Shown one piece after another: positions 6,869 to 40,040 of a stretch of 64,000 nucleotides of DNA. The notes below the pieces were generated by a model that was given only the letters and a program-made list of their open reading frames with translations, was not told the origin of the DNA and ran no database searches. The position numbers and the translations under genes were made by a program. Positions within the stretch are counted from its first letter, which is position 1; each line of letters opens with the position of its first letter. Source of the stretch: Erysipelothrix sp. HDW6C (lineage in GTDB: Bacteria > Bacillota_I > Bacilli_A > Erysipelotrichales > Erysipelotrichaceae); NCBI RefSeq assembly GCF_011299615.1, contig NZ_CP049861.1:558001-622000 (forward strand). Reading direction: 5' to 3'.

Positions 6869-7221
6869 TGGTGGAGTTGGCGAGAGTCGAACTCGCGTCC
6901 AAGAAATGTTCCACATTTAGACTTCTACAGTTTAGTCACATGTAGTTAATCAAGGTTGGGACATGTGACCAACCGACCCCTTGATGTGCTCAGAGATTTT
7001 CGAGACCAAGCTAGAGCAGACTTGGACCTTATCCTTTGTTGGTTAGGTGATACTCATTGCCCAAAGGCTAAAACGTTGAGTATCAGGCTGCAAAGCTAAA
7101 AGCTAATTAAGCAGCGAATTGTAAACTGTTATTGTTTCCAGTTAAGTTTTGTTTGGCCTTAAGGGAGCCACGCCACTGCAATCTAAATCAAACGAAATCC
7201 TGTCGAAACCATGACAACCCC
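6869..7221 (-). ncRNA. ssrA: Transfer-messenger RNA (tmRNA)
   Basis: The 3' end reads GGCGAGAGTTCGA-type T-arm sequence (in reverse complement) and ends CCACCA with an encoded CCA. The 5' end begins GGGG at 7221 and can pair with it as the acceptor stem of the tRNA-like domain. Inside, the tag frame runs from a GCC resume codon at 7155-7157 to TAA at 7107-7109 and encodes AKQNLTGNNNSLQFAA. The FAA ending fits proteolysis tags. tmRNA with SmpB rescues stalled ribosomes. The length of about 353 nt is normal for a one-piece tmRNA. Its 3' end borders the accessory patch at 3.7-6.8 kb. Confidence 0.95.
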
Positions 7222-8997: not shown

Positions 8998-9510
8998 TCA
9001 CTGAAATCGGGTGTATCTCATTTCTGCGAATTGCCCAAATTGATGCACGGATTTGAGTGTGAAGCGTTTTATAGCATCCTCTTGTGTGAAAAGGGGGATT
9101 CCGGATCCCAATAAGACAGGGGCAATTTGTAAGATAATTTCATCAACACGATTTGCGTTCAAGAGATGGGAAAGGATGGTGTTACCACCAACAATCCAAA
9201 TGTTCTCTGATTTGAAAGTGTCAATAAAGCGAATGACATCACCGCTGATTGGTGTGAATCTATCAATAAGTGCTTCGCTTTGGTGGGTAAATACGTAGTT
9301 TTCGGTGGTGCTGTAAAAGTCTGATATGTTTGGGATATCTTTAATGGCATCGTAGGTACGTCTGCCCATGATTGTGACATTCATTTCTTTGTAAAAAGAA
9401 TCATAACTCGTTTCTTCGACACTGCCAGAATCGTGCAGCCAATCGAGTTGGTGGTTCTTGTCGGCAAGATAGCCGTCCATTGTGATGCACCCATAAAAGT
9501 ATAGTTTCAT
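8998..9510 (-). CDS. Dihydrofolate reductase-fold protein (RibD C-terminal type)
   Basis: A 170-residue cytosolic protein with the RibD_C/DHFR-like fold. Visible features are the N-terminal MDGYLA element, the TIMGRRTYDA motif, IWIVGGNTIL (nucleotide-binding GG) and LLGSGIPLF near the end. Proteins of this type (YyaP/YwjB-like) are NADPH-dependent reductases of uncertain substrate and are not the essential DHFR. It begins 8 bases after the proC stop and is probably co-transcribed with proC. Confidence 0.85.
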   Translation of the reverse strand: MKLYFYGCITMDGYLADKNHQLDWLHDSGSVEETSYDSFYKEMNVTIMGRRTYDAIKDIPNISDFYSTTENYVFTHQSEALIDRFTPISGDVIRFIDTFKSENIWIVGGNTILSHLLNANRVDEIILQIAPVLLGSGIPLFTQEDAIKRFTLKSVHQFGQFAEMRYTRFQ

Positions 9511-9518
9511 CCAGTAAC

Positions 9519-10307
9519 CTACTTTATGATAGAAGTCCCGAATTTGTCTTTATCGATTGTGGCGCGTACAGCCTCTCTCACGACGGATTCGAACTTGTTG
9601 TTATCGAGTGATGTAACACCTTCTATTGTTGTCCCACCAGGCGAGCAAACGCGTTTGGTGAGAATCTGTGCATCGACGCCGCTTATTCGTAAGTAGTCAG
9701 CACTACCTGCAACTGCTAGGGCAGCGATATCGAGTGTCTCCTCATAAGAAAGGCCTTCTTCCATTCCTTCTTTTGCCATTGCATCAATAAACTTAAATAC
9801 AAAGGCTGGTGAGCTTCCGCCGATTGCGCTGAAACCGCTGAACTGTGCTTCGTCAATTTCGATAATTTCACCAAGGTGATTAAAAATATCGCGCACTGTG
9901 TTCAAGTGTTCGGGCGACGTGAGGCTATTGTGGCAAATTGCGGAAATTCCTTTTTGAATTGCGACATTGAGATTAGGCATGACGCGGACGATTGCAATAT
10001 CTCCTGTCATTGCGGTGATGTCGTCCAGTGATAATTTTGCTGCAATGGAAACAATGGTTTTGCCTTTCAAGAATGGCTTAATTTCAGCAATTATTTCAGG
10101 AAATTTCTCTGGTTTAACACTTAAGACGATGATGTCGGATTCGATAACGCACATCTCATGATTCGATGCTGCATGAACTCCCAGTTTGCTAGCCTTAAAG
10201 AGTGTATCCTCTGGGGTGCGTGCGCTGATAACAATACTGTTTTTATCTGGCATGCCTTGAATGATTGCTTGGGCCATATTGCCAATTCCTATAAATCCAA
10301 TTTTCAT
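9519..10307 (-). CDS. proC: Pyrroline-5-carboxylate reductase
   Basis: Catalyses the last step of proline synthesis, NAD(P)H-dependent reduction of pyrroline-5-carboxylate. The 262-residue length is typical. The N-terminal Rossmann motif GFIGIGNMA is present. The C-terminal dimerisation part contains the conserved stretch reading KRVCSPGGTTIEGV. GGAGGG precedes the ATG. The gene follows a structured leader with a terminator (about 10346-10453), so its expression may be controlled by attenuation. The other proline genes (proA, proB) are not nearby. Confidence 0.95.
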   Translation of the reverse strand: MKIGFIGIGNMAQAIIQGMPDKNSIVISARTPEDTLFKASKLGVHAASNHEMCVIESDIIVLSVKPEKFPEIIAEIKPFLKGKTIVSIAAKLSLDDITAMTGDIAIVRVMPNLNVAIQKGISAICHNSLTSPEHLNTVRDIFNHLGEIIEIDEAQFSGFSAIGGSSPAFVFKFIDAMAKEGMEEGLSYEETLDIAALAVAGSADYLRISGVDAQILTKRVCSPGGTTIEGVTSLDNNKFESVVREAVRATIDKDKFGTSIIK

Positions 10308-10345
10308 GATAATCCCTCCATAACTCTATTTTCTACCCAAAACGC

Positions 10346-10453
10346 AGAAAAAGCAAGTTGCCTTGCTTCTTCTTGAATAATCCGCTTCATTGAAAGGTCC
10401 TTGGTTTACCAAGATCAAGGAATGTTATTCAAATCTGAGCCTAACCTCATTCC
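10346..10453 (-). ncRNA. Structured leader RNA with intrinsic terminator upstream of proC
   Basis: A promoter (TTCACA 10484-10489, TAAGAT 10461-10466, 17 bp apart, minus strand) predicts a start at about 10453. The leader begins GGAATG, which can pair with CATTCC at 10419-10424. The next eight bases, TTGAATAA (10425-10432), are perfectly complementary to TTATTCAA (10373-10380). A CTTGG/CCAAG hairpin lies between. A terminator hairpin (10351-10368) with a T-run follows, about 40 bases before proC. The T-box signature TGGNACCGCG is absent and I do not recognise a known riboswitch class. Confidence 0.55.
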
Positions 10454-10460
10454 TAATTCT

Positions 10461-10489
10461 ATCTTAACGGAATTGGAAAGATATGTGAA
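10461..10489 (-). promoter_or_regulatory. proC leader promoter
   Basis: TTCACA at 10484-10489 and TAAGAT at 10461-10466 (minus strand) are spaced 17 bp, directly before the structured leader. Confidence 0.55.
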
Positions 10490-10590: not shown

Positions 10591-13500
10591 TTAGAATTTC
10601 TTTTTGCGATTCACAAATACAATAAGTGAACCCATTAACAAGGAACCCATTCCCATAAAGAGTGGCATGTTTGATACCCCTGCTCCTGGAAGGTTGGTTT
10701 CTTGAGTTGGTTTTGGTTTCTTAACGACACCGAGAACAATTGGTTCGAGTGTGTTAGCGAAACGAATTTCGACAGGTGAGAATTCACCTTCAAATTCCTC
10801 GGGAATCTCAAACGCTGCGAGTTTCTTTGACAGTAAGTAACCTTTTGGAGCTTTTACTTCTTGAATGAAGTATGATCCAGGTTCAAGACCGCCAATTGCA
10901 AGTTTTCCATTGACAGTTATAACGTCTTTGTGGAGAACTTCTTTGTTTTCGTCAAGGATATTGAAGACTGCCTCTCCAATGGTTTTTCCTTTGTCATCGA
11001 TTTTTGTGACATTGACACTACCTTGGTAGTTGACCACATCACCAAGATCTATATTGACTTTATTGCTTCCTTCACCAGGCACAAGGAATGTTATAACTTG
11101 AGTATTGACGATGTAACCTTTAACACCGTTTGACTCTTGGATTGTATAACTTCCAGGGCTCAAGTTTTGGAATGAAACAGCACCATCGCTTTTTGAAACA
11201 TCTGTAGCAACAAGTGTTCCGTCTGCGTCATAGAGTGTAAACTCTGCGCCTTCGAGGTTGGTGCCTGCTTCGGTAACTTTGGTTAAGAATACATCTGCTT
11301 TAAAGTTTGTTTGTGTGACATTTACAGTTTCAGGCACATCTTCTGCTTCGGCTGAAATTGTAAACGTTACGTGTTCTGTATTAAGAATAAATCCTTCAGG
11401 TGCTGCTGTTTCTTGGAAATAGTAATCACCTGGAGATAAGTCTGTGACGCTAATCAAACCATCACTATTTGTTGTGAGGTTAGGACGGATTAAGTCACCG
11501 TTTGTTGCGAAGAGGCTGTATTCAGCATCTTCTAGAGGTGTTCCTGTTTCATCGACCTTTTTCAATGAAGCGGAGCCTTTGTAGTTAACGACATCACTGA
11601 TGTCTTTGATTGCTTTTGTTGCCTTAAGTGTATCGAGCTCAAATGAGAATTTCTCAGTTCTCAATACATAACCTGGAGCAGCGACTGTCTCATAATAGAC
11701 ATAGCTTCCGGGACCAAGATTTGTGAATGTTACGTATCCGTCATCATCTGACACGAATCGATCGGGCAGTAGCACACCATCTTTCTCAAGTGCAAACTCT
11801 GCACCACCCAGACCGTTTATACCATCTGTTTTGTTGAATGTTGCGCTCATCTTATAGTTCGCAAACTCTTCTGCATCAACAATAACAGGGTTGTTATGAT
11901 CAACGGATTCTTTAATTTCGAAAGGAATTGGCGTTGCGTCTAGGAAGTATCCTGGAGCAGCAACTTTCTCAACAAAGTAATACTTACCTGGCGCAAGTCC
12001 TTCGACAGTGATGACACCATCAACGCGTGACATCAGTCCGGATTGGAATTCGATTCTCAAGCTTTCATCACTTTGTGGTTCGCCAGTATAAAGTGCAAAC
12101 TCAGTTCCAGATATTCCGCGGGTGATTGAATCGCTAACGCCTCCATCAACTTTACGAAGGATTACGGAACCTTGATAGTTCGCAAATCCATCTTCATTAA
12201 TATTGATTGTAATCGGTGCGTTGATTGCATTGTCCGCGATTGTAAATGGAATCAATGTTTTGCTTAAGACATAGCCTGGTGCTGCTTGTGTTTCTTTAAT
12301 AACATACGATCCAGGACCAAGTGGTGTGAATGATACTTTTCCATCAGTTTGCGATGTTGTTGTTAACAATGCGGTTGTCAGGTTGTCGTATGTCGGTGTA
12401 GTGCCTGGTGTGACACGATAGACAGCGAATGTTGCGCCACTGAGTGTTTTATCATTTTCAGGATTTCCGTCATACTTTGTAAAGTTGACAGTAGCACTGT
12501 AATTTTTAGCTGTTACATTTACTGTAGCAGGCTTTGTAGATGCCGCTGCGGGGATGGTGAATTTAATCTCATCCTCATTGCGCAGGTACGAGTGTGAAGG
12601 TGTTTCTTCCACAAAAGTATAGTCGCTAGGGGCGAGTGCATCTTTGATTTCGATAATACCATTTTTTGTGGGATAGACTCCGATTAGCTCGGTAGTGTTA
12701 CGGTAAAGCTTGAATGAGATTGGACTCGTAATAGCCTTCTCAGTGATACCGTCAAGCTTCGTTAGTTTTACAGAGCCTTTATGGTTCACGACGTTGATTG
12801 TTTCAGAACCATCCTCATTGAAGAGTATGTTTTCTTTGACGCTGATTTTGAATTCGGTTGGGTTCAAGATATGTCCTGCAATTGCAGTTTTCTCTTTCAC
12901 GATATATGTGCCCGGTAACAATCCAAGGTTATTGTTGTTGAACGATCCTTGACCGTTTGAATTCGTTGTAAATTCACCCATAAGTTTTCCACGTGTGCCA
13001 TCAGTTGCCTGTTCGTAAACTTCGAACACGGCAATAAGTTTGTCTTTCTGGTTTGTGGAAGAAGTCTTGGTAAGTTTGATTTCATTCAATACATTGGTAA
13101 CTCGGTGTGTAACGCCAGCGGCACTTGAGTCTTTGCTGACGCGGACGGCAACACCGTTTCGATAGTTTGCGGGGATACCATAACCATCAACCGTTTTAAC
13201 TTCTTTAAGAATATAGTCTCCAGTTAGTAAAGGTTTCAGTGTTACTAAACCCTTGCTATCGGTTGTACCGCGAGCGGCAAACTTACCTGATTTTGCAAAG
13301 TAGAGTTCGAATTGAACGCCACTTAAGGGTTTTCCATCTGCGCCTACTTTTTCAATTGTGAACGTTTGGCTTGAACCATCAACAGATCCACCACCGAAGT
13401 TTAAACTGCTTGTTGAAGTTTCCTTATCGGATACAGTGCTTTGAGCGGTTGTTGATCCATTGAACGCAACGTTATTCTTGAATGTATGTTTTCCTTCTTC

Positions 13501-16371
13501 GAAGAGTGGTACTGTCTTATATTTCACGATGAATGATTTGTAACCAAGGTCGCTTATTTTTAAGACTTCAAGATCAAAGGATTCAATTGGGAATTCTCCC
13601 TCTTTTTGAACCTCATTGAATGTAACTTTGTAGTTTGTATCGCGGATTAATTTTGTGCCTTGAATTACCGTACCATCACTCTTGACTGTCGCTCCATAAA
13701 CTTCAAGTGACTTTTGATCGTAAGTGTGGTTGTTGCTAAGCGTATCGGTAATTTTAGCTTCTGTTAAATCACTGTTGCTCTTGTTAAGGACAATGGTCCA
13801 ATTGAATGCGGCAGGTTTGCCGTTCACCTGTTCAACAGTATAGGATTTTTCGCTAAAGTTTCCGCCATTAGGGATATCGACTGTTGCATCGACAGTTGTT
13901 GTTTGCTTGTTGGTTGTTACAACTGCGACATTCTTAATCTTCTCAGGAATAATTTTGTCATCCATTGAAGTTTTGAACTCAACAGCAATCCGTTGTGGCT
14001 TTGCTCCCATCGAATTAATGAATGACTCGTTAAAGTTAAATGAAACGGAATCATCATCTTTCGAAGAGTTATTTTCTGTTAGTGTGAAATGTTCGCCACT
14101 CTTTAGTTGGACGGATGATCCGTCAACAAGCGTTGTACTTCCATCGGGATTAACCGTGTAGTTCATTGCTTTTGCAGTTTCGAGTAAGAACTTTTGATTT
14201 TCCAAGAGTACATCCGCAATGTTATAACGCGTAATGTCCTCGTGTCCGTTAAAGTTCAAGTAGATGACCCATGTTAGCTCTTTTGAGTCAAAGTCATAAC
14301 TTCCTGTTTTCTTACCGTTGTTAATAAATGATGAAGCAGTTGGAACTGTTGCGGTTGCTTCTTGATTAATTATCTTCTTGTTGGTTGTAGTGAGTGTAAC
14401 ATCAACGTGGTTCGAGAACGTATCACGTTGTTTGGTCACGCTGTTGTCAGTGAGTGTGGTGTAGGTTGTATCGTAAGTTAAACTGTAGTTTGCTGTAGCG
14501 GGTGCTTCAATAACGGAGTAATCAAGTGTGTATGATTTCTTGTCCGATGAGAACACAGGTGTTACTGGTGTTTTAGTATTTGTTACATGATTGTACAATA
14601 CAAAGCTTGTTGGTACATAAGTTAAATCTGCAGCACCGTCAACAAGTTTATCGTTGAGGTGAATGTTGGTAATGCTGTGATTTCCATCATTAATGCCGAC
14701 TGTCCATGTGATTTTCTTTGCACTGTAATCAATGGTTGCGTTTTTACTTGCGATACCGATTCCGTATCCTGTTCCGCTGCCATCTTTACCGACCGATTCA
14801 ACGTCGCCGTTGTTGTCGATTGATAGTGTAGCTCTGTTTGATACGGGATCCTTAAGTTTATGAATCATCTCTTCGCGAACTTGAGTTTTATAGTTTATTT
14901 TTAGAGTATCGGTTGTTGGTTTAAGATATTTAACATCAAATCCATTTCCTGAGCTGTCAAATGAAATAGCGTAGGTATCGGCAAACTGTGCTTCAAATGC
15001 AGCCAGTGAGTAGTCGGTGCCGTTTACATTGATTTTAAAGGAATCTTTTTGATAATCAAATGTATCAATAGGTGAGATGCGGTCTGTGAATAATGCATCT
15101 TTAGGAAGATTGATGCCACTTGGATTGAGTGTGACATTCCATTCAAATGTACGATCTGCTTTGTTATATGTTGAACCGCTTTTTACGACAACGGACTCAC
15201 GTGTAAATGTTTGTTTGACTTCATTTGAATCTTTAGGTTGAAATTCAGTAGATTCCAAAGTTGCTTTGTTGGTGAAATCCTTGCTGTCAGTTAAGATTGA
15301 TAATTGTGACTCATCAACAGTTGTTGTGATAACAATTTTACGGGGGGTACTCAACTTCTCGAAGGTTAGTAAATTTCCGGTAACATTCCATTCAGAGGTC
15401 ATATCCACAGGTGTGCCTTCGCTAATTACTGAGCCTTTAGCGTTGATTGCGTACTCATTGACCATAACGCTGTCAACGGTGAGACCGGCTGGAATCATGT
15501 CAGTGACTTTGACGTTCGTGAGGTCTTGATAGTCCTCGTTTATATTGATAACCCAGGTAATTGTTTTTGCTGTGGTATCACGTGTCAATGCAGATTTTTT
15601 AATAGGGCTTCCAGGTGTTGTTGGAGTTACGGTAAATTCAACAAGTTTTTCATGTGTTACAGGATGAATGATATCAATGATTTTGTTGACTTCATTCTCT
15701 TCAACGTTGAATTTTGTACCAACCATGATATTTCCTTTGAAATCTTCGACCATCTCGGATGTTAGGATACCTTGTCCGAATGTGAATACAATCTTTTGAG
15801 TTGCTTCATCATAGCGGTAGGTACCGAGATCGTCTTTTGGTTGTGAAAGGGGTACATCCTTATTAAATACAAATCCAGGAGGAAGGTCGATAGAGATTGT
15901 ATCACCAGGAATTGGTTTGAAATCTTCATCATCGGTTTTAATAATCTCCCAGTTTACTGAGAATTGCAATTCGTCACCATCTTTAATAGGCATTGTGAGG
16001 GCTTCGTTTGGATCGGGTACAAGGTTTATATCATTTAATTTATAATTAACGGCAGTGACCTTGTAGTTCCCTGAGATTGTTAAATCTTTCGGTTGTCTCT
16101 CTTCAAGATTTTGTGTTGCGACTTCTTGTGGCTTCGCAACCTCGCCAGTAGGCTCTTTATCAGGAGGTGTTGTAGGTTCTTCTTCTGTTTGTGGTGGTAT
16201 TTCGACTGCTTCTGCAGTGGGTTCAGTAGGTGTCTCAGTCGCTGAAACAGGCGCTACTTCGGTAGGTGTTGTGCTGCTTGGTGTCGGTTGATTGTCGGCA
16301 AATACTGTGAGTTGCACCATGATCAAAGACGCAATTAAAGACAGCACTAAAAAAGACTTTTTCTTCTTCAT
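10591..16371 (-). CDS. Giant CnaB-repeat cell-wall adhesin (LPGAG anchor)
   Basis: A 1926-residue surface protein. Signal peptide about 1-25, then a Pro/Thr/Glu-rich stalk to about 95. Next come about five collagen-adhesin-like beta domains (about 95-990), each with a motif such as KTITWVI or ELTWVIY. About nine CnaB/SpaA-type repeats follow (about 995-1880), each starting like VxLTKxD and ending with PGSYxxxE and APxGY elements. The Lys and Glu positions fit self-forming isopeptide bonds. The end has LPGAGVSN (LPGAG at 1894-1898), a hydrophobic helix and NRKKKF. It is a sortase substrate and a probable host-matrix adhesin, resembling Rsp-type adhesins of Erysipelothrix; that resemblance is from memory. 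GGAG lies 8 bases before the ATG. Confidence 0.9.
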   Translation of the reverse strand: MKKKKSFLVLSLIASLIMVQLTVFADNQPTPSSTTPTEVAPVSATETPTEPTAEAVEIPPQTEEEPTTPPDKEPTGEVAKPQEVATQNLEERQPKDLTISGNYKVTAVNYKLNDINLVPDPNEALTMPIKDGDELQFSVNWEIIKTDDEDFKPIPGDTISIDLPPGFVFNKDVPLSQPKDDLGTYRYDEATQKIVFTFGQGILTSEMVEDFKGNIMVGTKFNVEENEVNKIIDIIHPVTHEKLVEFTVTPTTPGSPIKKSALTRDTTAKTITWVININEDYQDLTNVKVTDMIPAGLTVDSVMVNEYAINAKGSVISEGTPVDMTSEWNVTGNLLTFEKLSTPRKIVITTTVDESQLSILTDSKDFTNKATLESTEFQPKDSNEVKQTFTRESVVVKSGSTYNKADRTFEWNVTLNPSGINLPKDALFTDRISPIDTFDYQKDSFKINVNGTDYSLAAFEAQFADTYAISFDSSGNGFDVKYLKPTTDTLKINYKTQVREEMIHKLKDPVSNRATLSIDNNGDVESVGKDGSGTGYGIGIASKNATIDYSAKKITWTVGINDGNHSITNIHLNDKLVDGAADLTYVPTSFVLYNHVTNTKTPVTPVFSSDKKSYTLDYSVIEAPATANYSLTYDTTYTTLTDNSVTKQRDTFSNHVDVTLTTTNKKIINQEATATVPTASSFINNGKKTGSYDFDSKELTWVIYLNFNGHEDITRYNIADVLLENQKFLLETAKAMNYTVNPDGSTTLVDGSSVQLKSGEHFTLTENNSSKDDDSVSFNFNESFINSMGAKPQRIAVEFKTSMDDKIIPEKIKNVAVVTTNKQTTTVDATVDIPNGGNFSEKSYTVEQVNGKPAAFNWTIVLNKSNSDLTEAKITDTLSNNHTYDQKSLEVYGATVKSDGTVIQGTKLIRDTNYKVTFNEVQKEGEFPIESFDLEVLKISDLGYKSFIVKYKTVPLFEEGKHTFKNNVAFNGSTTAQSTVSDKETSTSSLNFGGGSVDGSSQTFTIEKVGADGKPLSGVQFELYFAKSGKFAARGTTDSKGLVTLKPLLTGDYILKEVKTVDGYGIPANYRNGVAVRVSKDSSAAGVTHRVTNVLNEIKLTKTSSTNQKDKLIAVFEVYEQATDGTRGKLMGEFTTNSNGQGSFNNNNLGLLPGTYIVKEKTAIAGHILNPTEFKISVKENILFNEDGSETINVVNHKGSVKLTKLDGITEKAITSPISFKLYRNTTELIGVYPTKNGIIEIKDALAPSDYTFVEETPSHSYLRNEDEIKFTIPAAASTKPATVNVTAKNYSATVNFTKYDGNPENDKTLSGATFAVYRVTPGTTPTYDNLTTALLTTTSQTDGKVSFTPLGPGSYVIKETQAAPGYVLSKTLIPFTIADNAINAPITININEDGFANYQGSVILRKVDGGVSDSITRGISGTEFALYTGEPQSDESLRIEFQSGLMSRVDGVITVEGLAPGKYYFVEKVAAPGYFLDATPIPFEIKESVDHNNPVIVDAEEFANYKMSATFNKTDGINGLGGAEFALEKDGVLLPDRFVSDDDGYVTFTNLGPGSYVYYETVAAPGYVLRTEKFSFELDTLKATKAIKDISDVVNYKGSASLKKVDETGTPLEDAEYSLFATNGDLIRPNLTTNSDGLISVTDLSPGDYYFQETAAPEGFILNTEHVTFTISAEAEDVPETVNVTQTNFKADVFLTKVTEAGTNLEGAEFTLYDADGTLVATDVSKSDGAVSFQNLSPGSYTIQESNGVKGYIVNTQVITFLVPGEGSNKVNIDLGDVVNYQGSVNVTKIDDKGKTIGEAVFNILDENKEVLHKDVITVNGKLAIGGLEPGSYFIQEVKAPKGYLLSKKLAAFEIPEEFEGEFSPVEIRFANTLEPIVLGVVKKPKPTQETNLPGAGVSNMPLFMGMGSLLMGSLIVFVNRKKKF

Positions 16372-39917: not shown

Positions 39918-39929
39918 GTAAGAGTATTA

Positions 39930-40040
39930 ACAAAGCCGAATTTAATACCCATAATAAGGTTGGGTAGTATCTACCGACACACCGTAAATGTGTCGACAAT
40001 CGTGGTGAAAACACTAGATCGTTTTCCCTCGATCTTTTTT
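39930..40040 (+). ncRNA. Purine riboswitch with terminator
   Basis: The aptamer core is clear. P2 is ACCCA/TGGGT around the loop TAATAAGG. J2/3 reads TATCTACC. P3 is CGACACA/TGTGTCG around CCGTAAA, and J3/1 reads GACAAT. The base equivalent to position 74 is C, which predicts guanine or hypoxanthine. Position 75 appears as A instead of U, and position 21 as U instead of A. P1 looks weak. An intrinsic terminator (40016-40021 with 40030-40035, then Ts) lies between it and the permease gene, so purine excess should stop transcription. Confidence 0.88.

Follow-up and report, generated by a model that had tools for sequence, protein, structure and literature searches.

A conserved leader with a terminator upstream of proC in Erysipelothrix as a candidate, narrowly distributed cis-acting attenuator

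The proC locus and its neighbourhood

The window analyzed here is a 64,000-nt stretch of the genome of Erysipelothrix sp. HDW6C (NZ_CP049861.1, positions 558,001-622,000), and all the features are given in window numbering. The initial annotation of this DNA reported that proC is preceded by a structured leader and a terminator, and this description is supported, with the promoter being predicted. The parts of the locus, in the direction of transcription, are the following:

10461..10489, minus strand: likely promoter, TTCACA-17 nt-TAAGAT, a consensus match only
about 10453-10346, minus strand: leader, located between the likely promoter and proC
10419..10453, minus strand: P1 hairpin, formed by GGAATG (10453-10448) and CATTCC (10424-10419), with a variable loop of 23 nt
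10400..10413, minus strand: P2 hairpin, CTTGG-TAAA-CCAAG, invariant in three species
10383..10399, minus strand: conserved tail GACCTTTCAATGAAGCG, with 16 of its 17 bases shared with E. anatis
10373..10380, minus strand: TTATTCAA, the complement of TTGAATAA (10432-10425), in the window species only
10346..10373, minus strand: intrinsic-terminator-like hairpin AGAAGAAGCAAG-GCAA-CTTGCTTTTTCT, 12 bp, loop GCAA, with a U-run in the 3' arm
10304..10390, minus strand: reading frame of 28 codons, MKRIIQEEARQLAFSAFWVENRVMEGLS, which overlaps the start of proC
9519..10307, minus strand: proC, pyrroline-5-carboxylate reductase (262 aa, named by protein resemblance), the presumed regulated gene

The GGAATG/CATTCC stem that had been placed at the start of the predicted transcript pairs exactly, and the P2 hairpin and the conserved tail, which turned out to be the best-conserved part, are features absent from the initial annotation. 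On the same strand, a ribosome-binding site is found between the U-run hairpin and proC. Between the terminator and the proC start, the only candidate promoter is a 9/12 match that extends into the start codon, and transcription of proC therefore probably passes through the terminator.

The gene upstream of the leader (10591-16371, minus strand) encodes, by inspection, a repetitive surface protein of 1926 aa with a signal-like N-terminus and, at the C-terminus, an LPXTG-type sorting-like motif (LPGAG), and it ends in a strong terminator-like hairpin of its own. On the other side, 8 bases downstream of proC, inspection showed a dihydrofolate-reductase-like (RibD C-terminal) frame (8998-9510, minus strand) which is probably co-transcribed; this frame is missing after proC in E. 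anatis, where a terminator is found instead. A tmRNA gene is located at 6869-7221 (minus strand), and several relatives also have the tmRNA near proC or proBA. Moreover, the window carries a purine riboswitch aptamer at 39919-40019 (plus strand), which at 64.8 bits exceeds the gathering score of Rfam.

Regarding the other proline genes, proA and proB are encoded elsewhere in the genome of the window species and lack a leader of the proC type; the 5' region of proBA is short and holds no copy of it. In E. anatis and E. aquatica neither proA nor proB was found over the family cut-off, and the ornithine aminotransferase family gave no match in any genome of the genus. These two species nevertheless retain proC and, as described below, its leader.

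Conservation and distribution of the leader

The proC genes of two distantly related species of the genus, E. anatis and E. aquatica, are preceded by an equivalent element consisting of promoter, both stems, the tail ACCTTTCAATGAAGCG and a terminator. The gene order is common to both species: an upstream gene with its own terminator, the promoter, the leader, the terminator, and proC. The -10 box TAAGAT of the window aligns with CATAAT at equal distance in both relatives, and the -35 box is weak in both. The leader comparison thus comprises three species, which provide only two independent sequences.

Between the window and E. anatis, P2 and the tail are identical at 30 of 31 bases, and a 34-base stretch starting from P2 conserves 31 bases (binomial tail about 1e-10). 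In proC, on the other hand, the third positions of the same two species are only 37.5% identical and the fourfold-degenerate sites match at 19 of 60, which is near saturation. The comparison of E. anatis with E. aquatica points in the same direction: all 137 bases from the leader start to the proC start are identical, whereas proC shows 69 differences in 771 bases (91% identity), and the probability of such leader identity by chance given this divergence is about 3e-6. In total, leader conservation spans about 55 positions. Since the leader has been kept while the neutral sites of proC are near saturation in one comparison and proC has diverged in the other, these alignments indicate that it is under strong purifying selection. 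We regard the leader as a probable genuine gene switch, though one of very narrow distribution.

The proC gene was detected in 35 of 40 relatives, and among the upstream regions read, only those of E. anatis and E. aquatica contained the leader. Most of the remaining genus members have another gene closely ahead of proC. A covariance model of the core, run against 316 genomes of the order, found three strong copies, all in Erysipelothrix, and against 395 genomes of the class it gave no convincing copy outside this genus. Among the weak matches of the model, the best ones were inspected and part of them were aligned to the core. The best inspected (L047, L048, L049 and L095) lie inside reading frames or straddle them, and the ones that were aligned match the core poorly. 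Furthermore, an exact pattern search over 84,980 species, a set that perhaps does not include the window genome, matched only E. anatis and E. aquatica. Each of the three species has one leader copy, always before proC, and no convincing second copy was found within the same genomes.

Terminator, pairing and folding of the leader

A conserved terminator hairpin lies between the predicted promoter and the gene. In the initial annotation it was called a textbook terminator, which overstated it: in the window the hairpin is weak, since only 3 of the 7 pairs of its core are G-C and its U-run is UUUUU followed by CUGCG, and a consensus scan did not call it. In E. anatis (L003, 1459-1489), AAATAAA beside the Shine-Dalgarno sequence of proC offers a possible second partner for TTTATTT in the 3' arm of the terminator.

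A covariation check across proC leaders, as the initial annotation had suggested, covered the three species. Between the window and E. anatis, one of the 12 pairs of the terminator stem is changed on both sides (G-C to U-A, compensatory) and another is altered compatibly (G-U to A-U), and such pair changes were matched by the shuffle control in 171 of 500 cases with the three sequences. The predicted stems P1 and P2 fit all three sequences but do not vary among them, and thus show no covariation.

The two octamers TTGAATAA and TTATTCAA are, as proposed, exact reverse complements in the window, but neither E. anatis nor E. aquatica has this pairing. The proposal that they form mutually linked structures acting as a switch is not supported: apart from its absence in the relatives, the pairing is near chance, because 5% of the dinucleotide shuffles made from the 82-nt aptamer part contain an inverted repeat of 8 nt, and it overlaps the terminator stem by only 1 base. 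The search for other switching elements was also negative. The P1 loop could pair with the tail bases ACCTTTC in both lineages; however, this loop-tail pairing or pseudoknot was no better than with shuffled loops (p 0.35 and 0.44). Nor did any upstream sequence stand out against shuffles as a pairing partner of the terminator arm (p about 0.22), and no conserved or better-than-shuffle antiterminator structure was found in the leader comparison. The folding energy is modestly below that of shuffled sequences (z -1.95 for 161 nt and z -2.86 for 112 nt). It is conservation, and not the inverted repeats, that raises the leader above chance.

Possible function and relation to known regulators

The conserved RNA core is flanked by a predicted promoter and a terminator, proC follows, and no convincing promoter lies between terminator and gene; transcription attenuation is thus the most economical explanation. 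We consider it likely that the leader is a genus-restricted orphan cis-acting attenuator of about 70 nt plus terminator, which sets the read-through into proC. The gene order, the conservation and the terminator pairing of this model are observed. Transcription would start near 10453, and the leader RNA would fold into P1, P2 and the conserved tail; RNA polymerase could then stop at the weak terminator or proceed into proC. The conserved core would most likely bind a signal that shifts the balance between stop and read-through, namely a metabolite, a tRNA or an RNA-binding protein, although no switching step was found among the antiterminator and loop-tail pairings compared with shuffles. It is possible that the read-through decision is taken by a protein, a tRNA or a ribosome instead of a direct metabolite sensor.

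A more specific form of attenuation would be a new class of metabolite-binding riboswitch whose ligand is proline or a compound close to it, for example pyrroline-5-carboxylate. The size of the leader, its position between promoter and terminator, the invariant core with one variable loop, the biosynthetic gene downstream and the lack of an Rfam class are consistent with it. Nevertheless, there is no covariation and no conserved switch, the element has a single gene context in just three species, and E. anatis and E. aquatica keep the leader although neither proA nor proB reaches the family cut-off in these species; this reading is possible but doubtful. We know of no validated proline riboswitch, and the stricter claim, that a new and genus-restricted riboswitch class binds proline or one of its precursors directly and regulates proC through transcription termination, seems unlikely.

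The terminator could also be constitutive, the leader product being a small trans-acting RNA and proC being expressed by terminator leakage. Promoter, product of about 108 nt and terminator make up a complete small RNA unit, and the tail bases ACCTTTC resemble, by inspection, an anti-Shine-Dalgarno sequence; but the element is found directly upstream of proC in the three species and nowhere else in their genomes, which makes this explanation improbable. Lower still is the probability that the conserved bases are the DNA operator of a transcription factor. It is true that CTTGGT-AA-ACCAAG forms a 6+2+6 DNA palindrome that closely follows the predicted transcription start, yet the conserved region of about 55 positions is too extensive for one operator, and no palindrome regulon was found in five genomes, which weakens this reading: pooled over these genomes, the palindrome counts are in line with those of the reversed-pattern control (47 versus 46), and all four further exact copies lie within coding genes. 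The least probable alternative, and a very unlikely one, is that a leader peptide is translated from ATGAAGCG and that the ribosome melts the terminator. ATGAAGCG is invariant, and in the window it has AAGGA 7 nt upstream and a frame that extends into the proC start. In E. anatis, however, the frame is MKRK-stop behind a poor Shine-Dalgarno-like sequence, so the 28-codon frame of the window is probably not a gene. The short frame is thus not conserved, it contains no proline codon, and the peptide would leave the conservation of P1 and P2 unexplained.

In low-GC Gram-positive bacteria, proline genes are controlled by T-box leaders, and in Bacillus subtilis such leaders control proBA and proI via tRNA-Pro. 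Like the proC leader, T-box leaders (RF00230) are structured and carry a terminator before a proline gene. The initial annotation reported that the T-box core is absent and recognized no known class, and both statements are supported. A scan of the leader against Rfam 15, with the gathering score and with a high E-value, gave only chance matches far below the gathering score and no match to the T-box model; by inspection, the leader, with about 80 nt before the terminator, is too short for stem I and lacks the T-box sequence. A tRNA-like reading was also discarded, as ARAGORN found none in the leader. Small pseudoknotted riboswitches such as preQ1-II are similar in their size, two hairpins and a tail able to pair with the first loop, but the proC leader has no Rfam match to them, its loop-tail pairing is no better than in shuffles, and the gene downstream is unrelated.

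The open literature searched contained no report of a comparable proC leader. A partly similar description concerns Candidatus Pelagibacter, where a motif found near rhtB, and in some cases ahead of proC, comprises 919 unique sequences with a well-conserved stem with loop and bulge, and the hairpin is often followed by a U-run (PMC2704228); that motif belongs to unrelated bacteria and is set apart from the proC leader by its description. Orphan riboswitch candidates that came out of comparative screens (for example PMC8632094 and PMC11109978) are likewise intergenic, conserved and structured leaders with unknown ligand, but they have far more representatives, and the main texts of both papers contain no proC motif and name no Erysipelothrix.

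We classify this element as a new, narrowly distributed orphan cis-regulatory leader, and not as a riboswitch. At present, as an orphan leader known from two independent sequences, it is of moderate interest. RNA regulators with such a very narrow distribution escape screens that need many homologues, and if a different RNA does the job of the T-box at proline genes in these bacteria, it would represent an independent solution.
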